Positions 16,509-54,489 of a stretch of DNA of 64,000 nt are shown piece by piece. A program made the position numbers and the translations under genes. The stretch spans positions 1,798,001 through 1,862,000 of the forward strand of contig NZ_CP027236.1 in NCBI RefSeq assembly GCF_002999235.1, read 5' to 3'. The notes under the pieces were generated by a model. The model made no database searches, was not told the DNA's origin, and worked only from the letters and a program-made list of their open reading frames with translations. The DNA comes from Actinomyces sp. oral taxon 897 (GTDB lineage: Bacteria > Actinomycetota > Actinomycetes > Actinomycetales > Actinomycetaceae). The first letter of the stretch is position 1. Each line of letters starts with the position of its first letter.

Positions 16509-16607
16509 CGAGCAGGATCCAGGGCAGCAGACGGACGAAAAATTAGTCACACAATCGCATAATCCGCACGCTTTGTGCCGGGAGTCCTCGTGGACGTCAG
16601 ACATCCC

Positions 16608-30694: not shown

Positions 30695-33196
30695 TCACTC
30701 GTCCTCCTCAGAGACTGTCTGGTGCGACTTGAGGAGCTCGTCCAGGAAGGACCGGCCGGTGGAGGCCGCAGGCCCGGGACCGTCCTGGCCCAGGGCGCCG
30801 CACAGCCGCCGCACCGCCCGGTCGACGTCCGCCGACCCCAGCGGGCTGAGACCGCCCTGGGAGCTGCTGGTCAGACGTCGCCGGGCCTCGGTGACCGCCG
30901 TCGCCCGCTCCGCCCAGTCCGGGTGCCGCATCCTCTGGCGCTCAGCGCGTTCATTGTGGTCAATGGTCAGGGTGAAGGCCTGCGTCTGCCCCTTAGGGGT
31001 GGCCAGGGTGGTGGCCGCCCGCATGTTCGGCAGGCGGCTGAGCGACCCGCCGCTCCACGTGCCGATCCGCTCCTCCACCCGGGGTGCGTCCCGGATGGAG
31101 GAGCGCAGCCCCACCACCGTGGAGGCGTTGGCCTCCACGGCACCGCCCAGGGAGGCACTGAGCTGGCCCATGTGCTGGTGGGCGATGACCACGCCGACGC
31201 CGAACTTGCGCCCCTCCGCCAGGAGCTCGGACAGCCCCCCGGCCTGGAAGAGGTGGGCCTCGTCGACCACGACGAGGTGGGGCCGCTCCCAGGACCCGCG
31301 GGCTCCCATGGCCAGGGCGTGCTCCATGAGCCAGACCATGCCGGTGAAGGCGGCCTGGTCGGCGCCGATCCGAGGGGCGGCGAGGTCAATGAGCAGGACC
31401 TCACCGCGCTCCACCACCTGGGCCACGTCAATGGCCCGGTACCCGGAGCCGAACACGGCCCGCATGGCCGAGGAGCGCACCAGCCTGTCGAACTTGGAGG
31501 AGACCCAGGCCAGGATGTCGGAGAAGTCCGAGGACCTGTTGTCGACCAGCTCACTACGCAGCTCCCGGGCGAGCTCCTCGTCCCGGGTGGCGACGGCGTC
31601 GGCCACGTCCTTGAGCCGCTGCCGGCTGGCCAGGACCTGGGGCACCAGGGTCAGGGTGGCGCGGTCCTCCAGCAGGATCCGCAGCGCCGCCATGGTCTGG
31701 CGGAACAGCCGCTCAAAGCGCGGCCCGATAATCCCCTCGTGCCTAGGGTCGAAGATCGCGTACAGGATCTCCAGGACCTCCCCCACCATGTCCTCACAGT
31801 CGCGCCCGGCAAAGGGGTTCAGGGGGGTGGGGTGCTCCAGGTCGGCGGTACGCACCACGTGGACCCGGTGGGCGCTGCCGGGCGTCAGCTCAGTGGCCAC
31901 CCGGCTGACCAGGGTGCCGTGGGGGTCGATGAGCGTCACCCCGATCCGGGCCTCCAGGGCCGAGGCGATCAGCCCCGCCGCCAGCGTGGACTTGCCCGCC
32001 CCGCTGGCCCCCAGGACCTGGACGTGCTGGCAGGCCTGGGTGACGCCCAGGCGCACCGTGACCGGGCGGCCGGAGGCGTCGGGGGCGGTCCCCAGGCGCA
32101 GGCCCGTGGCCGGGAGCTCCTGGGCCACCGGGACGTCGGGGATGGTGGGCAGGAGGCAGGGGACCCCGACGACGTCGGAGCGGATCCCGGCGGCAGGGAC
32201 CTTGACCAGGCCGCGGGCCATGCCCTGGGGGACCGCGTGGCCCTGGAGGGCGTCCTCGCCCCCGCCCCACACGGCGTCGGGCTCCTCCTCGTCACCCAGG
32301 GGGCGGTAGAGCATGTCGCTGGCCAGGCCGTCCACGGCGACCTCCAGGCGGGCGGGCACGTCCTCGCCCTCGTCCACTCCCAGGAGCATCCTCATGCGTA
32401 CCGGGGTCCCCATGTAACCCATCATGGCCTCCACCGAGGCCCGCCCCTCCGTGGTCAGGACCTGGTCCTGGAGCATGAGGCGCTCGACGGCGGTCGCGGG
32501 GGCCAGGTGGATGCGCAGCACTCCCCCGGTGCTGCGCAGGGTGCGCAGCAGGTCCATGCCGGAGCAGGCGAGGGGGTTGGGCCAGGTCCCCAGGGCGCGG
32601 GGGCGGAGGCCCCCGGTCCCGGGCACCTCCGAGGTGTCGGTCAGGACGAGGGCGTGCCCCTCGGGGGTGAGGTCGGCCCGGGTCAGGCTCAGGAAGAGCG
32701 GCTGCTCCCTGACGGCGGGAACAGCCTCACGCAGGACGGCAGGACGGGGGCGGTCCACCACCGGGTCGACCTCCTCCCACACGTGGGTGTGCTCACCGCA
32801 CCACACGAGATCCCCGCCAAAGGGCTCGCCCACGCCCCAGGCAGCCAGGGTGACGTTCACCTGCCCATTGCGCTCGGCCTCCATGGTCAGCGTCAGGCGC
32901 GAGCCCAGGGGCTGCTTGGCCAGGACGTTGAGCAGGCGGTTGGTGAAGAGCTGCGCGGCGGCGGGGGCGTCGGCCTGGCGCAGGAGGTGGTCCAGGCGGA
33001 AGAGGCGTTCAGGCAGGGGCCCGGACGGGGCCGGGCGCGGGTCGAGGGCCTGCGTGGCCACCGGCCCGGACGGGAGGGCCCCGGGGGCGGGAGACGGCGC
33101 CCCGGGGGCGGGAGGCGGGACCTCCGGTCCGGGGCCTGAGGCGGCAGGCCCGGAGTCAGGATCCGGGTCGGGGGCAGGACAGGAGTCGGTGGTCAT
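30695..33196 (-). CDS. HerA/VirB4-like ATPase, copy 1
   Basis: An 833-residue P-loop ATPase. An N-terminal region (60-380) with no assigned fold is preceded by ~50 Pro-rich residues. The motor domain has Walker A GASGAGKST at 396-404, the following VTLIDPHGTLV, Walker B HLVVVDEAHLF near 620 and a sensor segment VVIAHQHMGQLS. This layout is that of HerA-FtsK superfamily proteins that act as hexameric DNA or protein pumps (HerA, VirB4, TraC). It is closely related along its whole length to the ATPase at 41.9-44.4 kb. It is the last gene of a minus-strand set after the E2-like, JAB-E1 and membrane proteins, though a 443-bp repeat-bearing gap precedes it. Confidence 0.88.
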   Translation of the reverse strand: MTTDSCPAPDPDPDSGPAASGPGPEVPPPAPGAPSPAPGALPSGPVATQALDPRPAPSGPLPERLFRLDHLLRQADAPAAAQLFTNRLLNVLAKQPLGSRLTLTMEAERNGQVNVTLAAWGVGEPFGGDLVWCGEHTHVWEEVDPVVDRPRPAVLREAVPAVREQPLFLSLTRADLTPEGHALVLTDTSEVPGTGGLRPRALGTWPNPLACSGMDLLRTLRSTGGVLRIHLAPATAVERLMLQDQVLTTEGRASVEAMMGYMGTPVRMRMLLGVDEGEDVPARLEVAVDGLASDMLYRPLGDEEEPDAVWGGGEDALQGHAVPQGMARGLVKVPAAGIRSDVVGVPCLLPTIPDVPVAQELPATGLRLGTAPDASGRPVTVRLGVTQACQHVQVLGASGAGKSTLAAGLIASALEARIGVTLIDPHGTLVSRVATELTPGSAHRVHVVRTADLEHPTPLNPFAGRDCEDMVGEVLEILYAIFDPRHEGIIGPRFERLFRQTMAALRILLEDRATLTLVPQVLASRQRLKDVADAVATRDEELARELRSELVDNRSSDFSDILAWVSSKFDRLVRSSAMRAVFGSGYRAIDVAQVVERGEVLLIDLAAPRIGADQAAFTGMVWLMEHALAMGARGSWERPHLVVVDEAHLFQAGGLSELLAEGRKFGVGVVIAHQHMGQLSASLGGAVEANASTVVGLRSSIRDAPRVEERIGTWSGGSLSRLPNMRAATTLATPKGQTQAFTLTIDHNERAERQRMRHPDWAERATAVTEARRRLTSSSQGGLSPLGSADVDRAVRRLCGALGQDGPGPAASTGRSFLDELLKSHQTVSEEDE

Positions 33197-33297
33197 ACCA
33201 GGCCTTTCCGGAGGTGCGACTGAGAAGACTGAGAAGGAGGCACCCCGCCGCACGCCGTGCATCCTAGGAGGACAGAGACCAGGACACGCCGCAGGCC

Positions 33298-33387
33298 ACC
33301 AGCCCAGTTCCTGCCACCTGGGACACAGGGCGGCAGGCGCACCATGAGCTCCCCGTTCTCAGCCCAGTTCCTGCCACCTGGGACACA
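33298..33387. repeat. 27-bp direct repeat, exactly 60 bp apart
   Basis: A perfect repeat starting AGCCCAGTTCCTGCCACCTG occurs at 33301 and 33361. The core CCCAG...CTGGG can form a hairpin. It lies in the 443-bp gap between the ATPase and the small membrane-protein gene; nothing else was seen there. Confidence 0.85.
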
Positions 33388-33639
33388 TGCCCTGGCCGAG
33401 GAGGTCCGGGCTGCTGGCCCGACCGCCCCCGGGCTGCCAGCTCGCACGAGCGCCGTGCCCGGGGCGTCCTGCGCGGCCCCGGGCAGGCGCAGGACGAGCG
33501 CGGGAGCGCCACGTCCACGGGTGAGCAGCTGGGTGCGGCCCCGGGCAGGTGCGACGAGCTCGGTGCCGGGCACGGGCAGCAACTGCGCCCGCACCCCGCA
33601 CCCTGCACCGAGCTGGCCTCCTGCCCAGGGCGTGTCCCC

Positions 33640-34137
33640 TCACTCGTCGAGAACAGCTATGAGCACCCACACCAGGAACGTCACCGTGAGGGCTACGAGC
33701 ACCGCCATGACCGCCAGCACCAGCGCCGTCGGCGCGCCTGCCACGATCCCGCCCCAGCGTGCCGCCGTCAGAGCCGTCCGCTGGTCCGCGCTCACCCGGG
33801 ACAGGCCCCGGGCCGTCAGGGCGATGCCGGCGATGCAGACGCTGCTCAGCCCCATCACCACGGACTGGGACCAGGCGGACGGGAAGGTGAGCAGGGTGCG
33901 CGCGGCCCCGACCAGCCCGCCCTGGCCGGAGCACCCGTCGACCAGCAGCGGGTTGGCCACAGCCAGGACCACGCACACGACCATGAGCCCGTACAGAAGG
34001 ATCCGCTCATCACGCCCCATCCGGAACGTGCTGGCCGCACTCTCCCGGGCGTGCTGGCCGCCTTGGACCAGGGCGCCGTAGGAGGGGGCGGCGTCCTCAC
34101 CCAGCCGCCGCCTGACGTCGTCAGTGAACGAGCTCAT
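33640..34137 (-). CDS. Four-helix membrane protein of unknown function in the JAB-E1 cluster
   Basis: A 165-residue protein with a hydrophilic N-terminal ~45 residues and four predicted membrane helices. No family is recognised. Its start overlaps the end of the JAB-E1 gene by 17 nt, so the two are translationally coupled and presumably act together, perhaps with this protein tethering the system to the membrane. Confidence 0.75.
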   Translation of the reverse strand: MSSFTDDVRRRLGEDAAPSYGALVQGGQHARESAASTFRMGRDERILLYGLMVVCVVLAVANPLLVDGCSGQGGLVGAARTLLTFPSAWSQSVVMGLSSVCIAGIALTARGLSRVSADQRTALTAARWGGIVAGAPTALVLAVMAVLVALTVTFLVWVLIAVLDE

Positions 34138-35809
34138 CCGCCCGGCCCCCGGCCTCAGGCCCGGGCGTCTGCTCCAGGTCACGCCAGCTCGTGTCAGGGC
34201 ACTCAGCCCCCTCGATCAGCTCGTGCGCGATCGCCTCAAGGACGCTGCCGCCCGCCGCCCCGCTGGCGGTACCCGTCACAGTAGCGGTACCCATCACGGC
34301 GGCCGTCTCCAGGTCTTCACCGGGCCCGGAGACGGTGTCCGCGTCCTCAGGGACGGACCGGCGCGCCCCGGGCCCGCAGACGGGGCAGGACCCACCCCGC
34401 CGGACGACCGGCCACAGGCTCCGCGGGTGCGACTGGTGCGGTGCGCCCGGGAGCACCCGGTCCAGGACGGGCCAGTGAGGCACGGTCGTCACGATCCCGA
34501 AGGTGCGGCCCTGGGTGAGCAGGTGCACGAGCTCGCGCCCGTGGACGCTCCCCGGCCCGGCCAGGACCGCGAGGGCGGCCTGGGAGGCGACCGAGGCGAC
34601 CAGGTTGACCGACGCACCGAGCCCGGACTCAGCCACGAGACGGGTGTCGACGCCGTAGTTCGTGGCCGGGCGCTCGCTGGCGGACAGCTGGTTGGCGCCG
34701 ACGGCGCAGCCCCAGCAGGGCGTGCCCAGCACCGGCATGACGACGCACACCTCACCAGCCGCCGCCTTGCGGTACAGGGCGCAGCTGACCTGGGGGACGC
34801 CGCGCGTATAGGCGCGGGCGGCGAGGTCACCCTGCTCGACCATGTCGTCGGTGGCCAGGACGAGAAGATCCGGTGCGGCGGCCAGGGCGGTCCCGCTGTG
34901 CTCCCGGAGCGGGCCCATGAGGCAGGTGACGGCCGTATGCGGGCTGATGTCACGCAGGCGCCTCGCCAGCGCCCAGACCTTCGGCACGCCGATGTCGGCA
35001 CGGGTGTAGACGCTGCGGGCCATGTTGGCCTCGCTGACCTCGTCGGGGTCAATGAGGACCACCCGGCCCACGCCCGACCGCACCAGGTCCTCGGCGACCC
35101 GGCTGCCGACGGATCCGCAGCCGGCGACGACGACGCCCCTGTCCTGCAGGGAGCCGACGAGGCCACGGACCCGGGAGAGCGCGTCGTCGCCCTCAGGAGG
35201 CAGGAAGCCGTCGTCCTGCCCGGGCCGCGCCCCCTGCCCCTGGCCGTCGTCAGCGGCGCCGTCGACGAGGACCTCGCCGCGCCCGCGCTCCAGGACGGGC
35301 GCCCCGTCGGCCGTCCGGCTCAGGACGTGGATGCTCATCCGGTGCCGCTGGCCGATCGGCAGGTCGGTGTCACGGGGCACCCCGCGCGTGACCACGCAGA
35401 TGAGCAGCGAGTCGAGATGAGGGTTCTGCTCGAGGGCGTGGGTGGTGGTGCACACGTCCGTCGCCGAGGGGTCGGGGAGGCCGTCGGGGTGGGAGTGGAC
35501 CGTACCGGCCAGGACGCCCAGCCCCGCCCTCTCCGCCCTGCCCACCAGCTCGGTGAGCTCAGGGGAGATGTCCCAGCTGACGGGCGAGTACCGACCAGCG
35601 TGGTCCTCAATGAGCTCACGGACGACGCCGTGGTCGGCAAGGAGGGCGCCCCCTCGCTCGGGCTCAAAGGACGCGATGTGCTCCTGGACGCGCTCCACGA
35701 GGTCGGGAGAGAACCGGAGGACGACCTCGCCGGGATCCCTGGTCGTGGAGCGGGACGCCGTGCGGCGTGCCCGGAACCTGCGTCCCAGGAGGCTGGTGAC
35801 GTGCGGCAT
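34121..35809 (-). CDS. JAB/MPN peptidase - ThiF/E1 adenylase fusion protein
   Basis: A 562-residue two-domain protein. The N-terminal JAB domain has a complete JAMM zinc-peptidase motif: Glu51 in PERGGALL, H105-S-H107, then Ser115 and Asp118 in HSHPDGLPDPSATD. The C-terminal domain is a ThiF/E1 adenylating enzyme: GCGSVGS (230-236) binds ATP, LIDPDEV supplies the Asp, and CWGC (365-368) with a later CPVC look like a zinc site. In known prokaryotic ubiquitin-like systems the JAB domain trims or removes the modifier and the E1 activates its C-terminus. The ATG at 35807-35809 follows GAAGGG. It sits after the E2-like gene and overlaps the membrane-protein gene. The ~60 C-terminal residues are low-complexity. 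Confidence 0.9.
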   Translation of the reverse strand: MPHVTSLLGRRFRARRTASRSTTRDPGEVVLRFSPDLVERVQEHIASFEPERGGALLADHGVVRELIEDHAGRYSPVSWDISPELTELVGRAERAGLGVLAGTVHSHPDGLPDPSATDVCTTTHALEQNPHLDSLLICVVTRGVPRDTDLPIGQRHRMSIHVLSRTADGAPVLERGRGEVLVDGAADDGQGQGARPGQDDGFLPPEGDDALSRVRGLVGSLQDRGVVVAGCGSVGSRVAEDLVRSGVGRVVLIDPDEVSEANMARSVYTRADIGVPKVWALARRLRDISPHTAVTCLMGPLREHSGTALAAAPDLLVLATDDMVEQGDLAARAYTRGVPQVSCALYRKAAAGEVCVVMPVLGTPCWGCAVGANQLSASERPATNYGVDTRLVAESGLGASVNLVASVASQAALAVLAGPGSVHGRELVHLLTQGRTFGIVTTVPHWPVLDRVLPGAPHQSHPRSLWPVVRRGGSCPVCGPGARRSVPEDADTVSGPGEDLETAAVMGTATVTGTASGAAGGSVLEAIAHELIEGAECPDTSWRDLEQTPGPEAGGRADELVH

Positions 35810-35838
35810 GACATTCCCTTCTGGTTGGTTGTTCCTGC

Positions 35839-36648
35839 TCAGGCGGACAGGAGGACGTCCTGGCCCCACATACGGCGCTGGGTGTAGAGCGCCCACTTGC
35901 CGGCGTTGGCCCGGGCCTCCGTCAGGGTGGGGTGGGCCCGGCCGCCCGCGCCGCAGATGACGGGAACACGCTCCCCGTTGACGTAGGTCTCGATCATGTG
36001 GGGCTTGTGGCCGAACTGTTCGTCCGCGTTGGGGCGCAGCACCCAGATCCGCCAGAACCCCCCGTCGTTCGGGGAGCGGAAGACGAGGAAGACGAAGCGG
36101 AAGCCCATCGGGGCCACCTGGAGGCTGAAACGCCAGCCGTCGAGCACGGGGGTGTGCACCGGGGTCCACCCCTCGACGTTGTAGGGGTCGATACGGCGGA
36201 TCTGCGCGACGTCGTCCATGGAGATGGTGGGTGCGGGGGCCGCCATGCGCTCGGTGGGCAGGACCGAGAACGGGGCCGCGGAGCTGGCGCCAGGGCCCGT
36301 CACGGTCAGCGTGCCACCGGGTCCCATGACGACGTCGCCGCTCCTGTCACCGTTCTCAAGGGAACGCATGAGCCTGGCGACCTCCTCCCAGCTGGCCGCG
36401 CCGGTCCCCTTGTCCACCGGGCCCCGGCCCCCCGCCATGCGCTCGGTGGGGAGCGTGCTGCCCCAGGGCGCGGCCACGAGGCCACCTGCGTCGTCGGCGT
36501 GGGCGAGCGGCTGCAGGACGCCGTCAGCCAGGGCGACGTCGCCCGGCCCCGCCTCCTCAGGGGCCGTCCAGACCGCCCGCCCGTCGGGTCCGATCGTGGG
36601 GACGAAGTCAATGACAGTGGTGTCGGCGGATGTGGTCAGGTTTCCCAT
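35839..36648 (-). CDS. Possible E2-like (ubiquitin-conjugating fold) protein with disordered N-terminus
   Basis: A 269-residue protein. The first ~140 residues are flexible-looking and contain LPTERMA twice. The C-terminal ~115 residues show alternating strands (WRFSLQVAPMGFRFVFLVF, then FWRIWVL), HKPHMIETYVNGERVPVICG, and a final helix with WALYTQRRMWG. This resembles prokaryotic E2-like domains, where a Cys after a P-x-V-C-type turn carries the modifier; Cys232 in VPVICGAGG would be that residue. The assignment is by pattern and by the adjacent JAB-E1 gene, 29 bp downstream, and needs structure prediction. GGAG lies six bases before the ATG. Confidence 0.5.
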   Translation of the reverse strand: MGNLTTSADTTVIDFVPTIGPDGRAVWTAPEEAGPGDVALADGVLQPLAHADDAGGLVAAPWGSTLPTERMAGGRGPVDKGTGAASWEEVARLMRSLENGDRSGDVVMGPGGTLTVTGPGASSAAPFSVLPTERMAAPAPTISMDDVAQIRRIDPYNVEGWTPVHTPVLDGWRFSLQVAPMGFRFVFLVFRSPNDGGFWRIWVLRPNADEQFGHKPHMIETYVNGERVPVICGAGGRAHPTLTEARANAGKWALYTQRRMWGQDVLLSA

Positions 36649-36935
36649 GACGGGCTCCTTCGGTTACGTACGACGCCGCCCCGGCGCTTAATGCCTGTGA
36701 CGGACGGTGTCGCCTCGGTGGATCACCCAAAATGAGTTATACGTCACATGTGGGGTACCAAGCGGGCCCGGGGCGGGCTCCGGGAGCCGCCGGGCGGCGG
36801 GACTCGGTCGCTGGGCGGGCCTTGGGCAGGCCCAGGGCGTCGCCGGGTGGGCCCGGAGACGGCAATAACAACCGCGCTTCAGGGGTGTACCCCCGCGCGC
36901 CCGGCCTGCGCGGGGCCGACCCGAGAGGACCCGTC
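36649..36935. promoter_or_regulatory. Divergent promoter region between the E2-like and NYN genes
   Basis: 287 bp separate the two divergent gene sets. The segment AAAATGAGTTATACGTCACA near 36730 is AT-rich and likely holds promoter elements; ACGTCAC and TACGTAAC-like words occur on both sides. No operator can be named. Confidence 0.4.
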
Positions 36936-37778
36936 ATGAGCGCCGACGCCGTTGCCTTCCAGATCCGCCCGACCTGCCCGACCCCAGCCCCCAGGCTGAC
37001 CCTCGTCCCCGCCCTCGCCCCCGAGGTCCCCGTGGCCGGGGGCGTCTCACGCACCCGTCGTGACAACCGCACCGCCGCCGAGCGCACCGCCCCCGTCAGC
37101 GGCCGGGGCGTGCGACGCCGGGGGCGCACCGTCTTCGTCCTGGACCTGGAGAACCTCAGCGGGGGCGGCACCACCACGCCGCAGGACCTGGCCCGCACCC
37201 TCAACATCCTGCTCGACGTCATGCCGATCGGGGCCATGGACGTCGTCTACAGCGGCATGTCCCACCACTTCGCCGCCCAGAACCTGCCGGTCCTGGCAGC
37301 CGTGAGCCTGCACCCCGCCCTGCGCTCGGGCCCCGACGGCGGGGAGAACGCGGTCCTGGACCAGATCGACGTCAACCGTCTGGCCCGGCGCTTCGACAAC
37401 CTCGTGATCGGCTCGGGCGACCACGCCTTCGTGCCGCTGGCCCGCCAGGCCGCGAGGCTGGGCATGACCGTCTGGCAGGTCACCGGGCGCGGCGGCGTCT
37501 CCCGGGACCTGTGGCGGGCCTGCTCCCTGCACACCCGTCTCAACCTCGGCGACATGCCCGAGGCCCTCCCCCAGCCGCCTGCACGCGGCCGGTCGGCGGG
37601 GGACCTCGGCGGTCACACGCCCCAGCCGGAGCCGGTGGGTGAGCCGGTGGCTGACGGGTGGGAGCGCCACGGGAAGGCACGCCGTCATCACTGCCGACGC
37701 GACCACCTGCCTGCCGCGGCCCGACGTCGTACGGCCGCCGCCCGCCACCGCAACCAGCGCGTGCGGCGGGCCGCCTGA
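36936..37778 (+). CDS. NYN/PIN-like RNase domain protein
   Basis: A 280-residue protein. VFVLDLENLSGGG (Asp70, Glu72, Asn73) starts a NYN domain, and LVIGSGDHAFVPLARQAARLGMTVWQVTG near 165-190 holds the later acidic residue. NYN domains are PIN-like metal-dependent RNases. The ~60 N-terminal residues are Pro/Arg-rich, and the last ~50 are strongly basic (HHCRRDHLP, AARRRTAAARHRNQRVRRAA), suiting RNA binding. AGAGGA lies upstream of the ATG. It is the first gene of the plus-strand set that continues with the 521-residue protein and the AAA+ protein. Confidence 0.82.
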   Translation: MSADAVAFQIRPTCPTPAPRLTLVPALAPEVPVAGGVSRTRRDNRTAAERTAPVSGRGVRRRGRTVFVLDLENLSGGGTTTPQDLARTLNILLDVMPIGAMDVVYSGMSHHFAAQNLPVLAAVSLHPALRSGPDGGENAVLDQIDVNRLARRFDNLVIGSGDHAFVPLARQAARLGMTVWQVTGRGGVSRDLWRACSLHTRLNLGDMPEALPQPPARGRSAGDLGGHTPQPEPVGEPVADGWERHGKARRHHCRRDHLPAAARRRTAAARHRNQRVRRAA

Positions 37779-37789
37779 GGCCCAGGACC

Positions 37790-37930
37790 AGCGAAAGCGG
37801 CGCCGGCACCCGCGCCCCGCCCGGGGCGTGCGCGCGCCCCGGGCGGGCTGCACCAGGTCGTCGCGCGCAACCACGGCAAGGCCGAGTCCGGCACCCGTAC
37901 CCCGCCCAGGGTACGCGCGCCTTACCCGCG
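37790..37930 (+). repeat. 85-bp-spaced duplicated hairpin in the leader of the 521-residue gene
   Basis: CCGGCACCCG-N-CCCCGCCC-N-GGG at 37803 is repeated at 37888. In each copy the flanking arms pair: CGCCCC/GGGGCG in the first, CGTACCC/GGGTACG in the second. Both sides of the stem changed together, which is the mark of a structure kept by selection. It lies in the 340-bp gap before the 521-residue gene. Confidence 0.55.
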
Positions 37931-38023
37931 CCCCACCTGAGCCCGTCCTCGTATGCATCTGCCTCTGGCGAGAGGACTCCACAGCCGCGCTCGCCCAGAA
38001 GACGCACTCACCACCTGCCTCAA

Positions 38024-38054
38024 GGGCCCGGAGGAGCACCGCTCCTCCGGGCCC
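38024..38054 (+). terminator. Perfect 14-bp hairpin after the NYN gene
   Basis: GGGCCCGGAGGAGC, a 3-nt loop and the exact complement form a very stable stem-loop 64 bp before the next start. No T-run follows, so it could end most NYN transcripts or act as an attenuator for the genes downstream. Confidence 0.6.
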
Positions 38055-38118
38055 TCGTCGTCCTCATCCAGGCAACAACCGCATCTCACCACACATTCAC
38101 AACAGAAAGAACATCATT

Positions 38119-39684
38119 ATGACTACCAACACCACCAAGCGGCCTTACACCGTCGAGGAGATCCACAGCGCCCAGCGCATCCTCCCCGACCCGTTCACCG
38201 GCCAGTGGCTCATTGCGGGCGACCCCGACAACCCGGTGCCCTCCTACCGGGGCACGGAGCCGCTGACCGTGACGACCGACGAGATCGACATCGTCACCTC
38301 CAAGATCCTCCACCTGTCCTGGGGCTGCAGCACCGTCCGCCGGATGCGCGACGCCCTCCACCCCGGCGGCTCCTGCTGGGGCCGCAACCCGTTCGTCGTG
38401 AAGGCGGTGACGCCGCCCGTCTCCACCAGCGCCTCCACGTACGACCCCGACCTCGACGCCGTGGACGACGCCGGTGAGACCGCCTCCGCCACCGGGGGCG
38501 CCGGGCGGGACGTGACGCTCAGGGCGGTCATCGACCCCGACCCCAACTGCGAGGGCTGCGCCCAGTTGGTCCTGGATATCGTCCGCGGCACCACGCAGGA
38601 GGAGAAGCCCTTCAAGGGTGTGCTGGCCGTCATGGCCCGCGAGGCCCGCAAGCTGGGTCCCAGGCCCCTGATCGCGCCCCAGATCCGCGCCCGCGTCAAG
38701 AACGTCGCCGAGGACTACATGCGCGCCAAGGCCTCCCAGGACGGCGGGCTGTCGCGCCCGAAGGAGTCCGTCGCAGAGCTCAGCAAGCGCATTGGCCTCG
38801 ACGAGCGGCACGAGGCCGTGCTCGTGGACATCCTCTTCGGCATCCGCTTCAACAAGCCGCTCGAGGACGACATCCCCATGGACTACGTCATTGACCGGGA
38901 GACCCAGCGCCACCACACGGGCCCGCGGGAGGCCCGCGTCCTCGTCCTGGGCGTGGTGAGGACCGTCAAGAAGAAGCTGTCCGGCCTCAAGGGGCGCGAC
39001 CGCACGTGGTGGGAGCGCAATGTCACCAGGCCCGCCGACGCCTCACGGGTCGCTACGGCGCTCTCCCTCAACGCCGCGCTGTCGGACGGCCCCGACTCCG
39101 ACTCGTTCGAGGAGCTGCTGGAGGACCAGGTCGATATCGCCGAGAGGATGGAGACCGAGGTCATGAACCTGCTCGGTACCGGTATCAGGGACCTGTTCAC
39201 GACCCGCTACCTCACCGTGGGCGGCGGGCGCACCGAGGTCCTGTGGGACGCCGTCACCGACTACTTCACCGACCACCTCGGCCAGAGCCCGCTGGGGCTC
39301 GGCGGTGAGCGCATCGACCTTGACACGCTCCAGCGCGCCAGGGCCAAGGCCGAGCTCGTCAAGGAGGTCCGGGACATCGCCCGGATCTGGGAGCGCGAGC
39401 TCTACTCGGACCTCAGGTACCGCCTCCTGACGGAGATCCTGGACTTCCTGGGGGTCACCCCCGGCCCGGGACACCGTACGGACACGCTCAAGGGCCTTCT
39501 CGAGGCCCTGCCCCGTAGCCTCTACGCGTCTGTGGAGGACCTGCTGCGCACCGACATGCACAGGCCCGACGCCGAGGCCAGGTTCCTGCGCGGTGTCAGG
39601 CCGGAGCTCCGCACCGAGATCGAGCGCTGGCTCTACGACACGCTCAAGGGCCGGGCGAGCAGGAAGGCGCCGGCCGGGGTGTGA
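38119..39684 (+). CDS. Unrecognised 521-residue protein between NYN and AAA+ genes
   Basis: A soluble, mostly helical-looking protein of 521 residues that I cannot place. It begins with YTVEEIHSAQRILPDPFTGQWLIAG, has a Cys pair in DPNCEGCAQL near 150, a charged middle with RTVKKKLSGLKGRDRTWWERN near 290, and a helix-rich C-terminal third ending in a basic tail. No signal peptide or membrane segment is present. It is three bases upstream of the AAA+ gene, so the two are co-translated and it is a likely partner or substrate adaptor. The preceding frame extends upstream but crosses the hairpin region and is rejected. Confidence 0.78.
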   Translation: MTTNTTKRPYTVEEIHSAQRILPDPFTGQWLIAGDPDNPVPSYRGTEPLTVTTDEIDIVTSKILHLSWGCSTVRRMRDALHPGGSCWGRNPFVVKAVTPPVSTSASTYDPDLDAVDDAGETASATGGAGRDVTLRAVIDPDPNCEGCAQLVLDIVRGTTQEEKPFKGVLAVMAREARKLGPRPLIAPQIRARVKNVAEDYMRAKASQDGGLSRPKESVAELSKRIGLDERHEAVLVDILFGIRFNKPLEDDIPMDYVIDRETQRHHTGPREARVLVLGVVRTVKKKLSGLKGRDRTWWERNVTRPADASRVATALSLNAALSDGPDSDSFEELLEDQVDIAERMETEVMNLLGTGIRDLFTTRYLTVGGGRTEVLWDAVTDYFTDHLGQSPLGLGGERIDLDTLQRARAKAELVKEVRDIARIWERELYSDLRYRLLTEILDFLGVTPGPGHRTDTLKGLLEALPRSLYASVEDLLRTDMHRPDAEARFLRGVRPELRTEIERWLYDTLKGRASRKAPAGV

Positions 39685-39687
39685 GCC

Positions 39688-41577
39688 GTGCTCCTCCTGG
39701 CGTCCGTCATGGGGGGTATGCACACGCAACTGTCTTTTCCTGCCGGGTGTGGGGCCGTGGTGGTCCCGCGCCCGGTGCCGGCCTGGGCCCGCCGGGCCCT
39801 GTGCCACCTGCTCGCGCTCGAGCCCCAGCACGTGGTCCTCGTCACTGAGGACGACGACGTCGGGCGGGCCGGGGAGGCCCTGACCGCCGCGCTGCGCGGT
39901 CTGCCCGTGCCCGGGGGCCCTGCCGGGGTCGTGACCTGCTGCGGGGCCCGTGAGCTCTGCGCGCTGCGCGGCGGCGTGGACGAGGAGGACGGCGGGGCCT
40001 GCGCGGCGGTCAGGGCCGCGCTGTACGGCGTGCCGGTCGGCGCGCCCGGGGGCGGGGCCGGGGGTGGGATGGCTGGGTGCGAGGCGCCGCGGCCGGGTGG
40101 CGGCGTCCCTGTCGGCGCACCCGGTGGTGTGGCTGGTGGGGTGGTGGTCCCGGGGCGTCGTGTCCTGGTGGCCACCGACCCCGTCGACCCCATGGGGGCC
40201 GAGGCGTTCCTGCTGGCACGGCACACCGCCCGCCGCCTGTCCATGTCCCTGGCCTGGGTGGTCCCGGGCAGCCAGTGGGACCAGGCCGACGGCCTGGAGC
40301 GCCGCGCCCTGGTCCCCGGCGGCGCCACGGTCATCGACTCCCGGCCCGCCCCGGGCACGGCCGAGCTGCGTCGGGAGCTGGCCGGCCTGGCCCCACGGCT
40401 CGAGGCCTTCCACCGGGTCCGGATCCCGCCGGGGACGGTCGCGGCCGCGGCCCGGGCGGTACCCGGGGCGGGCGAGCCCGCCCAGCCCGAGCACGGCCGA
40501 CGCCTCCTGGACCTGTGGGCCTGCGACGCGGCGCTGCGCGGGGAGGACCACGCCCTGCCCCCCGGCCCCGCCCGCCCGGACGAGGACCGGCAGGCCCGCC
40601 GGTGGGACGTCCGCGCCCTGGAGCGGGCGCTGCGCAGCCGGGTCCTGGGCCAGGACGAGGCCTGCCACGCCCTGGCCCGGCAGGTCGCCCTGGGCCACCG
40701 CGGGCTGCGCCTGACCGACCGGCGCCCCCGCTCCGCGGTCCTGCTGACCGGGGGGACCGGGACGGGCAAGACGCTCCTGGCCACCACCCTGGCCGACCAC
40801 CTGGCGGCCGCCCGCCAGGAGGCCGGCGAGGCCCTGATCCGGGTGGACACGGCCATGCTGACCTCCGAGCACCTGGGCTCGACCCTCCTGGGCGCCCCGC
40901 CCGGCTACGTCGGCTCGGACAGGCGGGAGGGGTGGCTGACCTCCCGGATCGCCGCCAGCCCCCACGCGGTCCTCCTCCTGGACGAGATCGACAAGGCCTC
41001 CCCCCTCATACGCGACAACCTGCTCCTGGAGCTCCTGGGCAACGGGACCGTCACCGACTACTCGGGCCGGACCGTGGACGCCAGCGGCCTGGACGTCGTC
41101 CTGACCGCCAACACCGGGGCCCGGGCCCTGACCCGCCAGGCCCCGGGCCTGGGACCCGGCGAGGACCCCCGCGCCGTGGCCCGCAGGCAGGTCAGGCAGC
41201 TACTGGCCCCCGAGGTCCTGGGCCGCCTCGACGCCGTCGTCCTCATGGAGCCCCTGGACCGGGACCGCATGAGCCGGGTCCTGGACCAGGTCCTGGTCAC
41301 CCTCGCTCGGGTGTGCGCACGCAGCGGCTACACGGTGGAGGTCACCCACCAGGCCCGCGAGATCCTGCTCACCCAGGCCCTGGCCCGTCCCGACGGCGCC
41401 CGCCGCCTCCACCGGGAGGTGGAGCGGGCACTGGCCGCCCCGCTGCTGGACCAGGACGCGGGAACCTACCGCACCCACGTGGACGACCACGGACACATCA
41501 CACTCACCAGAACCACACCAAAAGACGCCTTGAACCAGGACAAGACACCCACCGCAGACGAACACACTCCTCTATAG
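39688..41577 (+). CDS. ClpA/ClpB-like AAA+ ATPase
   Basis: A 629-residue protein. Residues ~315-590 form one AAA+ module of the Clp C-terminal type: Walker A GGTGTGKT (355-362), the pore loop GAPPGYVGSD (403-411), Walker B VLLLDEID (428-435) and a small C-terminal lid domain. There is a single ATPase ring rather than two, and the ~300-residue N-terminal region is not a Clp N-domain; it has a Cys/Gly-rich part with GVPVGAPGG twice. Such motors unfold or remodel proteins. No ClpP-binding loop was identified. The GTG start has GGGGTG seven bases upstream; ATGs at 39709 and 39718 are alternatives. Confidence 0.85.
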   Translation: MLLLASVMGGMHTQLSFPAGCGAVVVPRPVPAWARRALCHLLALEPQHVVLVTEDDDVGRAGEALTAALRGLPVPGGPAGVVTCCGARELCALRGGVDEEDGGACAAVRAALYGVPVGAPGGGAGGGMAGCEAPRPGGGVPVGAPGGVAGGVVVPGRRVLVATDPVDPMGAEAFLLARHTARRLSMSLAWVVPGSQWDQADGLERRALVPGGATVIDSRPAPGTAELRRELAGLAPRLEAFHRVRIPPGTVAAAARAVPGAGEPAQPEHGRRLLDLWACDAALRGEDHALPPGPARPDEDRQARRWDVRALERALRSRVLGQDEACHALARQVALGHRGLRLTDRRPRSAVLLTGGTGTGKTLLATTLADHLAAARQEAGEALIRVDTAMLTSEHLGSTLLGAPPGYVGSDRREGWLTSRIAASPHAVLLLDEIDKASPLIRDNLLLELLGNGTVTDYSGRTVDASGLDVVLTANTGARALTRQAPGLGPGEDPRAVARRQVRQLLAPEVLGRLDAVVLMEPLDRDRMSRVLDQVLVTLARVCARSGYTVEVTHQAREILLTQALARPDGARRLHREVERALAAPLLDQDAGTYRTHVDDHGHITLTRTTPKDALNQDKTPTADEHTPL

Positions 41578-41632
41578 ACAGACGCCTCCCTACATAGGTG
41601 AGTATCCTCCGGCTGCGGGCACACCCTACGCC

Positions 41633-41722
41633 GGTGAACGCCTTTCCCCGTGGATGAACGCCTTCCTTCGTAGATGAACGCGCCTTCAGGTATATGAACG
41701 CCGTTTAGGATGGCGTTCATAT
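41633..41722. repeat. 20-bp tandem array, four copies plus one inverted copy
   Basis: TGAACGCC recurs with an exact 20-bp period (GAACG at 41636, 41656, 41676 and 41696), then GGCGTTCAT appears in reverse at 41712. The last direct and the inverted copy form a hairpin. It lies between the convergent AAA+ and HerA-like genes. Confidence 0.85.
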
Positions 41723-41730
41723 GGCCTTAA

Positions 41731-41790
41731 GCGCGTCCATCCCCAGGACAGCACGCCCATCCGCAGTACAGCGCGTCCACCCAAGAGGAA
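41731..41790. repeat. 20-bp tandem array, three copies
   Basis: GCGCGTCCAT-like units begin at 41731, 41751 and 41771, again exactly 20 bp apart, immediately after the TGAACGCC array but with an unrelated sequence. The rest of the 320-bp gap holds nothing recognisable. Confidence 0.65.
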
Positions 41791-41897
41791 GGGCGCGACG
41801 TCGGGCCGGGGCCACCCAGCAGGCCTCAGCCCACCGAGCCAACCCCACACCTCCGAGCCAGCCTCACCTCGCCGAGAAGCCCAGGAGGGGCCCGGCC

Positions 41898-44372
41898 TCA
41901 GTCCTCTGAGCCAGACAGGAGGGTGTCGACGTCAGCCGAGCCGGAAACCGGCTCCCCCATGCCCAGGGAGGTGAGACACTCCTCCAGGAGGGAGCCGAAG
42001 TCGTCGTCCTGGGGACCGTCCTGGGGCCGCGAAGCCCCACCGTCATGCTCGCAGGGCTCCAGGTGGGGGAGAGCAGTGAGGCGGGCGAGGTCGAGGGCCT
42101 CGCACTGACGGATGGCGGCCTCGACGTCGTCGCTGGTCAGGGCCTTGAGGCTGCCCAGCTCCTGGCACCGCCGCAGGACGCGGGACCGGGTGATCTGGCG
42201 GTTGCGCTCGACCGCCCCGGGGCGCTCGCGGCGCAGGGCGTCGGCGCGCTCGTTGTGGTCCACGACGAGGGTGAAGGCCTGCGTCTGCCCGGCGGGGGTG
42301 GCCAGGGTGGTGGCGGCGTGCATATTGGGCAGGCGACTGAGGGAGCCGCCGCTCCAGGTGCCGATGCGCGCCGCGACGCGCGGGGCGTCCTGGATGGAGG
42401 AGCGCATCCCCATGACGGTGGAGGCGTTGGCCTCCAGGGAGCTGGCGAGCTCCGCCGACAGCTGGCCCATGTGCTGGTGGGCCAGCAGGACGCCGATGCC
42501 GAACTTGCGGCCCTCGGCCAGGAGCTCGGGCAGGCCCCCGACCTGGAAGAGCTGCGCCTCGTCGATAACGAGGAGGTGGGGACGGTGGCGCTGCGCGCGG
42601 GAGGCCATGGCCAGGGCGTGCTCCATGACCCAGATCATGCCGATGAAGGCGGCCTGGTCCTGGCCGATGCGGGGCGCGGCCAGGTCAATGAGAAGCACCT
42701 CGCCGCGGTCCATGACGCCCTGGACGTCGATCGCCTCGCGGCCGGAGCCGAAGACGGCCCTCATGGCGGACGAGCGCAGGACGCGGTCGAACTTGGAGTT
42801 GACCCAGGCGAGCATATCGGCGAACTCGCTGGAGTGGTTGCCAGCCAGCTCGCTCTCGAGCTCGCGCGCCAGGCGCGGGTTGATGTGGTGGACCGCGCAG
42901 GCGACGTCGGTGATGCGCTCCCTGTCCGCCAGCAGCTCCGGTACCAGGCTGATGGTGGCACGGTCCCCAAACAGGGCACTGGCGGCCCCCATGGCCTGGT
43001 GGAAGATCCGCTCGAAGCGAGGGCCGATAATACCGGTGTGCTTGGGATCGAAGACGGCGTAGAGGATCTCAATGACCTCCCCGACCATGGTCTCGAAGTC
43101 CCGCCCCGCGAAGGGGTTGAGAGGGGTGGGCCGCTCCAGGTCGGCGGTGCGCACCAGGTGGGTGCGGGCGGCGGCCCCGTCGGGCAGCTCGTCCACGCAG
43201 CGGCTCACCAGGGTGCCGTGGGGGTCGATGACAGTCACCCCCAGACCGTGCTCGACGGCCCAGGCGACGACGCCGGCCTGGAGGGTGGACTTGCCGGCGC
43301 CGGAGGCCCCGAGCACGTGGACGTGCTGGCACAGCTGCTCCAGGCCGATGCGCACCTCGGTGCGTCCGCCGGTGGAGTCAAGGGCGGTGCCCAGGCGCAG
43401 TCCCTCGGTGGGGACGGCGTCGGTAAGGGGGACCTCAGGGGTCGTCGGCATGGCGCAGCGGATGCCGATGACGCCGGTGCGCTCGCCGGGCACGGGGATG
43501 CGGACCAGGCCGCGGGCCATGCCGCGCGGGACGGCCCGGCCCTGCAGGGTGCGGCTGGCGCCCGCCCACACCTCCTTAGCGTCCTCGTCGGCGCCCAGGG
43601 GGACGACCTCGAGGTCGCTGGCCCAGTCCTCGAGGGCGACGACGACGCGCGCGGGGATCTCCTCATCGAGGTCGGTGCCCAGCAGGAGGCGCATGCGCAC
43701 GGGGACGCCGACGTAGCCCATCACGGTCTCGGTGCTCGCCCGCCCCTCGGTGGCCAGGACGGTCTCCTGAAGCATCCAGGTCTCGGCGGAGCCGGCCGGG
43801 GCGAGGTGGACGCGCAGGGTCGCGCCGGCGCTGCGCAGGACGCGGGTCATGGTAAGCGCCGAGTTCGTCATCACGGTATTGGGCCAGGTGCCCAGGGGGC
43901 GTCGGAAGGCGTCCTGGTCGGCGCCGGGCAGGAGTCGGGTGAGGGTGCGCGCGCCGGTGTCGTCCGGCGCGCCGGGCACCACGGGCTCCGGCGTGAGGCG
44001 GGGCGACTGCCGGGTGACGGCGGCGACGACCTCACGCAGGACCCTGGGGGCGGGCCGCCCCGCGCCCGGGACGACCTCCTCCCACTCGTGGACGCCCTCG
44101 GAGCACCAGGCGAGGTCCTGGGGGAAGGTGGGGGTGACCCCGACGGCGTCCACGCTGACCCGGACCTCGCTGTCTCGTTCGGTGCCTAGGGTCAGGGTGA
44201 CGCGGGCGTCGGGCCCCTGGCTGGCGACGACGCCCAGGAGGCGGTCGGTGAGGATTCGGCCCGCCAGGCCGGGGTCGGTGTTGCGCAGGGCCCGGCTGAG
44301 GACGAGGCTGGTACGCTCAGGGGCTGAGGGGGCGTGCCAGCGGGTCTCGGGTCGGTTGTTGACGACGCTCAT
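41898..44372 (-). CDS. HerA/VirB4-like ATPase, copy 2
   Basis: An 824-residue paralogue of the ATPase at 30.7-33.2 kb with the same order of motifs: Walker A GASGAGKST (355-363), VIDPHGTLVS, Walker B HLLVIDEAQLF and the sensor HQHMGQLS. The Walker B ends in Gln rather than His, and the Pro-rich N-terminal extension of copy 1 is missing. The C-terminal ~100 residues differ most. AGGAGA lies just before the ATG. It is divergent from the TPR genes and convergent with the AAA+ gene, so it marks the right edge of the JAB-E1 module. Confidence 0.88.
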   Translation of the reverse strand: MSVVNNRPETRWHAPSAPERTSLVLSRALRNTDPGLAGRILTDRLLGVVASQGPDARVTLTLGTERDSEVRVSVDAVGVTPTFPQDLAWCSEGVHEWEEVVPGAGRPAPRVLREVVAAVTRQSPRLTPEPVVPGAPDDTGARTLTRLLPGADQDAFRRPLGTWPNTVMTNSALTMTRVLRSAGATLRVHLAPAGSAETWMLQETVLATEGRASTETVMGYVGVPVRMRLLLGTDLDEEIPARVVVALEDWASDLEVVPLGADEDAKEVWAGASRTLQGRAVPRGMARGLVRIPVPGERTGVIGIRCAMPTTPEVPLTDAVPTEGLRLGTALDSTGGRTEVRIGLEQLCQHVHVLGASGAGKSTLQAGVVAWAVEHGLGVTVIDPHGTLVSRCVDELPDGAAARTHLVRTADLERPTPLNPFAGRDFETMVGEVIEILYAVFDPKHTGIIGPRFERIFHQAMGAASALFGDRATISLVPELLADRERITDVACAVHHINPRLARELESELAGNHSSEFADMLAWVNSKFDRVLRSSAMRAVFGSGREAIDVQGVMDRGEVLLIDLAAPRIGQDQAAFIGMIWVMEHALAMASRAQRHRPHLLVIDEAQLFQVGGLPELLAEGRKFGIGVLLAHQHMGQLSAELASSLEANASTVMGMRSSIQDAPRVAARIGTWSGGSLSRLPNMHAATTLATPAGQTQAFTLVVDHNERADALRRERPGAVERNRQITRSRVLRRCQELGSLKALTSDDVEAAIRQCEALDLARLTALPHLEPCEHDGGASRPQDGPQDDDFGSLLEECLTSLGMGEPVSGSADVDTLLSGSED

Positions 44373-44778
44373 GGTGGTTCTCCTTGTGCGACTGCGGGCG
44401 CGGTGCGCGCCGCGTTACCCAAGGAGCGCGGTTGTTATTCGCGGGCGACCCCAGGCTCGGAGAGGATGCAGATCAGGAGGCTGCGCAGGCCCCAGGGCCG
44501 AGCTCCTGGAGGACCGCGGCGGGGAGCTGGCGGGTGAGCTCCGCACCAGGTGCAGGGGATGTGGCGGCGCGGGAGCGGCCGTCGTGCGCCGCGAGGGGTT
44601 GTAGTGGTCTGGCCTGGGCGGGGCCTGCTGAGCCTTGCCTGGGTCCTGGGCCCTACGGCGCCCGACCCTCAAAGGGGACTGACGGGGGCGGCACGACGGC
44701 TCAGATCCGGGGTGTCAGACCCGTCAACACCCCGGTGTGTGGTGCAATACGTCTGCCCGCGACGGACAGGAGGCAGCC
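44373..44778. other. Divergent intergenic region between HerA-like copy 2 and the TPR genes
   Basis: 406 bp without a credible gene. It must hold promoters for both directions. Its right end, GCGACGGACAGGAGGCAGCC, resembles the leader of the next TPR gene (CACGACGGACAGGAG), showing that leader and gene were duplicated together. No strong promoter box was found. Confidence 0.5.
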
Positions 44779-47718: not shown

Positions 47719-47860
47719 CCTGTGTGCAGGGTGAGACTTCCACACGCCCGTCCGGCAGGTCGTAGCGCCCGCCTCAGTGCCGTTAGCTATTGCCATGGTC
47801 ACAGCGCACGCCTCTTGACGGATGCGTCTGTGGCCGCGGCAGGGACGTCGGGCTCGCCTG

Positions 47861-47879
47861 GCAGCACAATATGTGCTGC
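47861..47879. promoter_or_regulatory. 19-bp palindrome upstream of the second TPR gene
   Basis: GCAGCACAATATGTGCTGC has perfect 8-bp arms around ATA and ends 32 bp before the start. It could be an operator or a leader hairpin. It is AT-richer at its centre than the surroundings. Confidence 0.45.
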
Positions 47880-47911
47880 AATGGGGCACACACGACGGAC
47901 AGGAGATGACC

Positions 47912-48693
47912 ATGACGGACCCGGACGAGGCTGACCTCTCCCCAGAGGAGATCCTGAGGGAAGCTGAAACCGCTTTTAGCAAAGCGGCCCGATTGTTCGC
48001 CACCGGGCACCAGGAGAAGTCGATCATAGCTTTCACGGAGGCTCTCGAGCTCTACAGTCAGGTGGAGGGCACCGAGCGCCAGCAGGCCGACTGTCTTGCC
48101 AATATTGGCGACGCCCTGAATGCAACGAAGTGTTACGAGCCTTCTCTAACAGCTTACTCGGTCGCCCTGGACTTCTACCGCGGCCTGCCTGGCACGGAAC
48201 GTCGACAAGCCGAATGCCTGTACAACGCGGGTGTCACCTTGAATGAGCTGGGGCGTCACGAGGAGTCCCTGACCCTCTACAGGAAGTCTCTGAGTCTCTG
48301 CCAGCACCTACCCGGCACAGAGCGCCGACAGGCGAGCTGCCTTATCAATATCGGGGTCATCTTGTGCAGGCTGGAGCGCTATGAGGAGGCGCTGACCGTA
48401 TACGAGGTAGCCCTGAGGCTCTACCGCGCTCTACCCGACGCCGAGCGGGAGCGGGCCGACTGCCTGAACAATACCGGCATCGTTATGTACGCGCTAGGGC
48501 GCCGCGAAGAGGCCCTCGACTACTACCGGCAGGCCCTCGACCTTTCCGCGACCTGCCCGGTAGCGAGCGGGACCGGGCCGCCTGCTCATACAATATCAGC
48601 ACTGCACTGCACAAGACAGGCCGCCACGAGGAGGCGCTCGCCTTCTACCAGCAGACCCAGGAGGTCTACCCCCAGCCTGACGGGGGCCGGTAG
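47912..48693 (+). pseudogene. Frameshifted TPR gene (six units)
   Basis: Reads from an ATG with AGGAG seven bases upstream through about five 40-residue TPR units, then loses frame near 48545. There CTTTCCGCGACCTG stands where relatives have CTTTACCGCGACCTG; one base is missing. In the +1 frame the text resumes perfectly (RDLPGSERDRAACSYNIS, TGRHEEALAFYQQTQEVYPQ) to a TAG at 48691-48693. This is the same ending as the TPR gene at 50.3-51.5 kb. Unrepaired, the frame would run to 48757 with a meaningless tail. Either the gene is inactivated or the base was lost in sequencing; a C/T-rich context makes both possible. Confidence 0.8.
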
Positions 48694-48809
48694 CCAGGAG
48701 GAAGTGGTACACAGAAAAACGAAGCAACGCCTACCCGAGACACCAACCAGCCGCTGAGCCGGCGTTTATTATAGAACGTTTACGAACAGGCAGTCAGGAG
48801 CCGAGAACA

Positions 48810-50252: not shown

Positions 50253-50320
50253 CCGGAGCTCGCACGGACCAACACTCCCCGCGACAAGACACGACCGCCA
50301 ACGACAGACAGGAAACGATA

Positions 50321-54422: not shown

Positions 54423-54489
54423 ATTCCCTCCTGGTACTCGGACCTACTGCCCTTGACGGACGCCCGGGGACGTCTGGTCCACACGACCG

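Follow-up and report, generated by a model that had tools for sequence, protein, structure and literature searches.

HerA, TPR and NYN genes beside a candidate ubiquitin-like conjugation cassette in a modular island of Actinomyces sp. oral taxon 897

The closest described relatives of the locus considered here are bacterial operons that combine a JAB isopeptidase, an E1-like adenylating enzyme and an E2-like partner. In the available part of their description, type 6e operons all contain a gene with one to three ubiquitin-like repeats, and their E2/RWD domain lacks a cysteine (Iyer, Burroughs and Aravind 2006, PMC1779556). Type II cyclic-oligonucleotide-based anti-phage signalling systems (CBASS) have, according to the excerpt available of PMC10097602, no separate ubiquitin-like protein (Ubl); Cap2 uses the C-terminus of cGAS, and Cap2 conjugation of cGAS raises cGAMP production. 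The FtsH ternary systems are presented, in the accessible portion of Kaur et al. 2020 (PMC7159879), as conflict systems that couple JAB, E1 and E2 proteins to AAA+ proteins and caspase-like effectors. Here, we analyse an island of Actinomyces sp. oral taxon 897, whose genome comprises 3.25 Mb on two contigs, in which an E2-like protein (E2L), a JAB-E1 fusion and a small membrane protein (TM165) are found together with HerA-type ATPases (HerA1, HerA2), TPR proteins, an NYN-domain protein, a AAA+ protein (AAA) and a protein of 521 residues (P521). It lies in a stretch of 64,000 nucleotides, referred to as the window (C1:1798001-1862000; assembly GCF_002999235.1, contig NZ_CP027236.1).

The evidence from gene content supports a modular island rather than eight genes that always go together. 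Three modules are separable: A, composed of HerA, TPR and NYN genes; B, composed of E2L and JAB-E1, with or without a membrane protein; and C, composed of the AAA+ gene and P521. Judged by the loci compared, the eight-gene set is a composite, of which the cassette can stand alone, as in Streptomyces sp. LUP30, and so can the chassis of HerA, TPR and NYN genes, and we take the conjugation cassette to have been added to this chassis in some lineages. An earlier note on this DNA, all of whose named genes are present in their places as long frames with high third-position G+C content, had proposed one system that repeated co-occurrence would support. Part of this proposal stands, as E2L, JAB, E1, NYN and HerA genes are also united in G620, a genome of another class, and part does not: no HerA, NYN or TPR gene was found within 10 kb of the LUP30 cassette, HerA-TPR genes (in the congeners G005 and G033 and on a Rhodococcus plasmid) and AAA-P521 genes (in G005, G013 and G033) occur with no E2L or JAB-E1 nearby, and the window and G620 share neither AAA, nor P521 (a weak hint only), nor the NYN subfamily.

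E2L, the JAB-E1 fusion and their relatives

E2L matched no Pfam, PADLOC or NCBIfam family, and Foldseek with its model returned nothing at E≤0.001. Its predicted structure is a UBC-like fold, for which the best structural matches are E2s, headed by the CBASS CdnG-E2 complex, so that the check for another fold came out in favour of the E2-like protein proposed earlier. The His-x-x-His motif (H214, H217) is invariant in the aligned relatives, and C232 occupies the same column in 10 of 11 alignment rows and is one column off in the eleventh (P0001, 97% identical to the window E2L, was omitted from the E2L alignments); we regard Cys232 as the putative thioester site that carries a modifier. All 11 relatives in alignment A6 share a fixed chain end, exactly one residue past an invariant Ser. 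Release of a Ubl from the E2L N-terminus through JAB processing at 'PGG' was considered and dropped: by visual inspection, and in a region where the model has low confidence, this PGG seems to lie at the turn of a beta-hairpin repeat; other copies read ADG or AGS, and the unit count is variable. A role of SxLPxERMA as a genome-wide target motif was likewise rejected, the LPxERMA DNA pattern being found only twice in the host genome, both times in E2L (backward-read control 0).

The JAB-E1 fusion, for which the Pfam scan was made on the longer frame 34121-36169, retains the JAMM motif (HxH(x7)SxxD and an upstream Glu) in 3/3 sequences (window, LUP30 and G620). E1 residues G230, G232, G235, D254, N262, R265, K277 and D321, which we take to be positions that matter for adenylation, are invariant in the same three, and the intact JAMM and nucleotide-binding motifs noted earlier are thereby borne out. 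The only cysteines common to all three E1 sequences are C365, C368, C475 and C478, which form a CxxC...CxxC set, with C343 present in two of them. A ThiF stretch that contains a Cys, presumably the catalytic one, aligns with JAB-E1 residues that include none; by these alignments, a catalytic Cys for an E1 thioester is absent from the conserved JAB-E1 positions, where only the CxxC pairs are kept. The closest solved structures are MoeB (1jw9, 1.9e-16), ThiF, TcdA-type dehydratases, UBA5 and MccB.

Because JAB-E1 starts 29 bases past the end of E2L and its own end overlaps TM165 by 17 bases, these three genes appear to form a single transcription unit, which is divergent from NYN, P521 and AAA on the plus strand. 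TM165 had been described as a coupled four-helix membrane protein; a simple scan gives three hydrophobic segments and not clearly four. Its likeness to the membrane protein of G620 is weak (33% over the last 60 residues with a blastp E of 0.43; hhalign 22%, E 0.001, for a single pair). In agreement with the earlier note, no Ubl family was recognised among the scanned genes of the window, LUP30 and G620, although a very divergent or distant Ubl could escape; 33 gap frames of at least 40 amino acids were listed, and the 10 that were scanned against Pfam contained no Ubl family.

The E2L profile found only the host genome among 213 genomes of the family and among 394 sampled genomes of the class, and a scan with two patterns, which can miss divergent members, added a single relative, in LUP30, from 84,980 species genomes. 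The JAB-E1 profile matched, at E≤1e-22, 4/396 sampled genomes of the phylum (the host, G620, G736 and G746); E2L stands beside JAB-E1 in the host and in G620, and no E2L match was found in the G736 and G746 stretches. In G736 (L072 8567-10857) a separate E1-like gene, 32% identical to the window E1 domain, directly follows a gene with a JAB-like HxHP...SxxD motif, with no E2L nearby, and by its sequence this pair is another prokaryotic E1/JAB type. In LUP30 (L032) E2L and JAB-E1 are directly adjacent, and the fusion, whose start codon is not settled, is 45% identical to that of the window (JAB region 49%, E1 region 48%). No match to the window HerA, NYN, P521, AAA, TM or TPR proteins was found within 10 kb of it, which counts against a single fixed system; by Pfam, its nine neighbouring frames include an SbcC/SbcD pair, ankyrin repeats, a helicase and helix-turn-helix proteins, and no HerA, NYN, AAA or TPR domain.

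The second independent locus, in G620 (L070), of the same phylum and another class, holds E2L, JAB, E1, membrane protein, NYN and HerA genes within about 15 kb. Its minus-strand gene run consists of NYN (Pfam 9.5e-18), an MvdD-type ATP-grasp, a 171-residue membrane protein, a 185-residue protein, E2L, JAB and E1, the last three being 30%, 32% and 39% identical to their window counterparts, with JAB and E1 as two genes. The same 20 kb contain a HerA gene (33% to HerA2, 1.9e-45), an adjacent CHAT gene, a Suv3-type helicase and further unknowns. The NYN proteins of the two loci belong to different subfamilies (hhalign 8.6%), and the 55 kb read contain no match to AAA or TPR and only a weak hint of P521. 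Among four genomes of the G620 family the E2L profile matched G620 alone, the other three being 72-79% complete. The pairing of HerA and NYN with ubiquitin-like genes is thus supported by one independent recurrence, which chance is unlikely to produce given how often HerA occurs in the window's family.

Further searches added no member of the cassette: the window JAB-E1, as a single query, found nothing in genome contigs, plasmids or phages, viral contigs gave no match to alignments of E2L and of JAB-E1, and plasmids gave none to the LUP30 E2L. Two neighbourhoods were read among the ThiF matches on plasmids (481 and 838 records), and both lie beside SAVED genes, are CBASS-like and fall outside the window JAB-E1 family.

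The HerA-TPR-NYN chassis and the AAA-P521 pair

HerA1 and HerA2 are closely related, as had been claimed (58% identity over 747 residues), and both have a P-loop with Walker A and B motifs in a HerA/TrwB core. They match PADLOC mad8 at 1.4e-17 and 1.6e-13 and the HerA defence models weakly, all of these matches being partial and low-scoring. The NYN protein, previously called a divergent RNase, reaches 21.7 bits (3e-4) against Pfam NYN, below the cut-off of 24.2, which fits a divergent member with a predicted RNase function. Four tandem TPR genes (44737-51472) adjoin HerA2, with 44-56% identity in part to the first of them, T1. Relatives of HerA2 at E≤1e-20 are found in 4/213 family genomes (the host, G005, G006 and G033); in G005 and G033 the gene directly after HerA encodes a TPR protein, with no E2L or JAB-E1, and the C-terminal region of T1 and T3 recurs in these HerA-adjacent proteins (about 35% over ~145 residues, 7e-17). 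Within the genus, this sequence evidence makes the TPR genes, which the earlier note had not listed, the best-supported partners of HerA.

Related sets occur on plasmids. HerA2 relatives were found in eight plasmid records, of which five neighbourhoods were read. On R. ruber pYYL1.1 (L076), HerA, NYN, CHAT and TPR genes lie within 15 kb, with no E2L or JAB-E1 in the 33-kb stretch, and the NYN protein belongs to one subfamily with that of the window (32%, 1.9e-13; hhalign 97.6%, E 3.3e-12); a Bradyrhizobium plasmid (L086) has a more distant HerA (25%), also with CHAT and TPR genes. NYN relatives were found in 12 plasmid records, and five were read: pYYL1.1; Rhodococcus pNSL1 (L082), with NYN, CHAT and TPR and no HerA in the 14 kb read; Rhodococcus pLW2 and a Herbiconiux locus, with PP2C genes and no HerA, CHAT or TPR annotated; and Arthrobacter pZXY24, with no CHAT, TPR, PP2C or HerA annotated. 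Because the last three loci have no HerA, CHAT or TPR annotated, this NYN also occurs outside the HerA-TPR set. The C-terminal region of T1 and T3 is detected on the plasmids more weakly than in the genus by blastp (pNSL1 2e-6 to 2e-5, pYYL1.1 0.001 to 0.02) and at 2.9e-11 and 9e-9, respectively, by a profile of four sequences; E-values refer to a set of 98 proteins, and within T1 the TPR repeats are matched by the profile as well. A HerA2 search of viral contigs gave nothing. By annotation and similarity, two combinations recur in the absence of ubiquitin-like genes, namely HerA plus TPR or CHAT and NYN plus both TPR and CHAT, and HerA, TPR and NYN genes, with or without CHAT, look like a defence candidate in their own right.

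The AAA protein has one ClpA/ClpB D2-type domain, in keeping with the ClpA/B-type motor seen before (TIGR02639 1.7e-50, far under the model cut-off), and its gene is located ~3 kb from E2L. P521, which had been listed as an unknown protein, has no family in Pfam, PADLOC or NCBIfam, and its AlphaFold2 model is poor (predicted local distance difference test score 47). A suspicion by eye that it is sigma-factor-like was given up, as neither P521 nor two relatives had a Pfam hit at E≤1. Its comparison with a 440-residue G620 protein was not counted (hhalign 13.7%, E 0.002, with the profile of alignment A2, from which P0010, 98% identical to P521, and the partial P0011, 95%, were omitted; 1.2% with single sequences).

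Among 49 genomes of the genus, AAA relatives (53-58% identical) are found in G005, G013 and G033, where weak P521 relatives adjoin them (1.4e-7, 2.8e-4 and 1.2e-10, respectively). The AAA-P521 stretches of G013 and G033 have no E2L or JAB-E1 match, and likewise none is near in G005, whose contig extends over just 5.8 kb. All three HerA-TPR genomes of the genus (the host, G005 and G033) also have AAA-P521, at a hypergeometric probability of 2e-4 that leaves out G006 (HerA 32%, no such TPR nearby), counts the host genome and does not control for relatedness; the two pairs are ~33 kb apart in G033 and on different contigs in G005. In metagenome clusters, the longest contigs of the E2L cluster P0003 and of the P521 cluster P0013 both measure 12,506 bases, and no such common size links the HerA1 clusters to the E2L clusters. 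Two conserved genes, U1 and U2, are divergent from AAA-P521 (L059 3850-7583, L061 15205-18640; 59-62% identical between G013 and G033) and have no informative Pfam match; a relationship to the Rhodococcus and G620 unknowns was rejected, as hhalign scored no better than reversed-sequence controls.

Table 1. Genes of the island, in left-to-right order, with positions in the window
Feature	Position	Strand	Evidence and remarks
HerA1, HerA/TrwB-type ATPase, 855 aa	30695..33262	-	Pfam DUF87 2.1e-8, TrwB_AAD_bind 6.7e-6; Walker A/B
TM165, small membrane protein, 165 aa	33640..34137	-	Open reading frame and start; three hydrophobic segments
JAB-E1 fusion, JAMM isopeptidase domain and ThiF/MoeB-type adenylating domain, 562 aa	34121..35809	-	ThiF 3.9e-29, Prok-JAB 1.9e-6
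E2L, 269 aa; two SxLPxERMA repeats, then UBC-like domain with H214, H217, C232	35839..36648	-	
NYN-domain protein, 280 aa	36936..37778	+	Pfam NYN 3e-4; ATG at 36732 is a possible earlier start
P521, fold unassigned, probably mostly helical	38119..39684	+	No family matched
AAA+ ATPase, one ClpA/ClpB D2-type domain and long N-terminal region	39688..41577	+	AAA_2 8e-28, ClpB_D2-small 1.7e-6
HerA2, HerA/TrwB-type ATPase, 824 aa	41898..44372	-	Pfam DUF87/TrwB; Walker A/B
T1, TPR protein; C-terminal region is residues 837-993	44737..47718	+	TPR families (Pfam)
T2, TPR protein	47822..48757	+	54% identity to part of T1
T3, TPR protein, C-terminal region as in T1	48810..50252	+	56% identity to T1; C-terminal region 63%
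T4, TPR protein	50249..51472	+	44% identity to part of T1

None of the eight locus proteins reached an NCBIfam cut-off among the matches listed (25 of 28 for JAB-E1, 25 of 39 for AAA); the best defence-type match was 6A-MBL cap2_3, with 84 bits against a cut-off of 320. PADLOC matches of the locus proteins were all partial, and PADLOC offers no cut-offs to compare with. A dispersed repeat of roughly 130-170 bases has four copies in the window (16374-16545, 29248-29378, 52777-52903 and 61042-61216), two of which flank the island. In the convergent gap between AAA and HerA2 (41600-41800), repeats (TGAACGCC..., AGCGCGTCCATCC...) recur every 20 bases with inverted repeats between them, an arrangement that might serve as a terminator for both directions or as a binding array. 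A 28-base sequence occurs twice, in identical form and at a distance of 60 bases, in the gap between HerA1 and TM165 (33300-33387). A third HerA-type ATPase (54490-56877) is found amid small genes (52912-57449), with no blastp match to HerA1 or HerA2 at 1e-5.

Competing readings of the island

We favour, with a probability of roughly 45%, a modular, sporadic conflict island, perhaps directed against phages or plasmids, in which a conjugation cassette with direct transfer from E1 to Cys232 of E2L is joined to a HerA-TPR-NYN chassis. In this model, the E1 domain would adenylate the C-terminus of a modifier not recognisable beside it and would hand the activated carboxylate directly to Cys232, a direct transfer being proposed because the E1 lacks a conserved catalytic cysteine. 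E2L would attach the modifier to a target, the JAB domain would trim or reverse the conjugate, and TM165 may keep the complex membrane-bound. The HerA-TPR pair would be the sensing or DNA-handling chassis and NYN the effector RNase, with conjugation switching on chassis or effector, comparable to Cap2 conjugation of cGAS in CBASS; AAA and P521 would be a third, separable module and may act as an unfoldase arm. Gene content, motifs, the predicted fold, conservation and co-occurrence are established, and from them we infer adenylation of a protein C-terminus, a thioester at Cys232, conjugation and its regulatory effect, a modifier and a role in defence. Several observations weigh against this model or against the unity of its chassis: outside the window, the evidence for the pairing is still one locus; the G006 HerA (32% identical) has no such TPR gene in the 18.7 kb read; and, by annotation, 3/5 plasmid HerA neighbourhoods and 3/5 plasmid NYN neighbourhoods have neither TPR nor CHAT genes. 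A bolder version, which we consider doubtful, holds that the island belongs to an undescribed actinobacterial conflict class, in which a cassette of Cys-less E1 and repeat-bearing E2 sits on a HerA-TPR-NYN (often CHAT) chassis, the modifier is not a recognisable beta-grasp protein and conjugation licenses the motor or nuclease; the modifier would then perhaps be the C-terminus of a partner, even the fixed chain end of E2L itself.

It is quite conceivable, at somewhat below even odds, that the genes are merely neighbours, gathered at a hot spot as three independent modules (E2L/JAB-E1/TM, HerA-TPR-NYN and AAA-P521), each working alone. Each module is indeed found without the others (the cassette in LUP30, HerA-TPR in G005 and G033, AAA-P521 in G013, G005 and G033), and the island is flanked by dispersed ~130-bp repeats (29.25 and 52.8 kb); however, HerA and NYN genes recur with E2L, JAB and E1 in another class, all three HerA-TPR genomes of the genus also carry AAA-P521, subject to the limits given above, and the E2L and P521 clusters agree in the length of their longest contigs. 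Another reading, which we think improbable, has the E1-like domain activate a small peptide or sulfur carrier, in the manner of MccB, MoeB or enzymes of the ribosomally synthesized and post-translationally modified peptide type, with E2L as a scaffold or inactive UBC-fold partner. The identity of the closest solved relatives, the MvdD-type ATP-grasp gene in the G620 gene run, the lack of a conserved E1 Cys outside the CxxC pairs and the failure to recognise a Ubl nearby would all suit it, yet a UBC-like protein with conserved His and Cys and a JAMM domain accompany the E1 in 3/3 loci, the E1-E2-JAB set of conjugation systems. Housekeeping quality control, in which tagging feeds the ClpA/B-type AAA+ protein, is very unlikely in our judgement: the AAA gene is close to E2L, but AAA-P521 is found in three congeners with no tagging genes nearby, no AAA relative was found in the 55 kb read around the G620 locus, and E2L, which was found in none of the other 212 family genomes, does not look like a housekeeping gene. 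Of the tagging-plus-motor system, perhaps for defence or quality control, that had been envisaged, we favour the conflict side. If the pairing favoured here is functional, HerA pumps, TPR/CHAT proteins and NYN RNases would join the possible targets of control by bacterial ubiquitin-like conjugation, and two questions are posed: how a Cys-less E1 loads an E2, and what is conjugated where no recognisable ubiquitin-like protein is encoded nearby.

Comparison with described systems

A combination of HerA, NYN and E2/JAB/E1 genes was not found described in the open-access literature, among the matches listed. In the available part of PMC7159879 the sole mention of HerA is in the reference list and NYN is absent; that of PMC8195603 names HerA only among its references, and NYN solely for animal proteins and in one reference. 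The FtsH ternary systems of PMC7159879 differ from the island, as far as the accessible text goes, in having a Ubl-E2 protein, a RING E3, and vWA and FtsH proteins. Weak matches to the PADLOC HerA and mad8 models are shared with the systems behind those models, with no MADS gene set among the window genes scanned. In architecture the island comes nearest to type 6e, with which, in the available description (PMC1779556), it shares a JAB domain N-terminal to an E1-like domain, a separate or fused UBC-fold partner and a sporadic distribution that includes certain actinobacteria; it differs in the conserved His-x-x-His and Cys and the SxLPxERMA repeats of E2L and in the lack of a recognised Ubl. 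The N-terminal JAB fusion is found in the window and LUP30, with split genes in G620. Because E2L has a Cys and no Ubl is recognised, we do not assign the island to type 6e.

The Bil pathways, whose gene set we take to be BilABCD, and the related Bub proteins also place JAB and E1 activities beside an E2, and, to judge from its name and aligned range, BubCD may combine the JAB and E1 parts in a single chain, whereas no Ubl gene is recognised at the window locus. Only part of the E1 domain of JAB-E1 aligns with the PDB entry 'Citrobacter BubCD' (E 0.004), and no paper on BubCD was found in the open-access literature searched. As for CBASS, no CD-NTase family was found in the nine locus genes with Pfam, PADLOC and NCBIfam or in 20 further window genes scanned with Pfam, and no SAVED gene among the window genes scanned. 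Compared with Cap2/Cap3 of type II CBASS, as far as the excerpt available describes them, the window E1 is fused to JAB and not to E2 and its conserved Cys residues are confined to the CxxC pairs; both sets combine E1, E2 and JAB, with no beta-grasp modifier gene in the CBASS operon and none recognised at the window locus, and, by analogy, type II CBASS would offer the best mechanistic model for the island.

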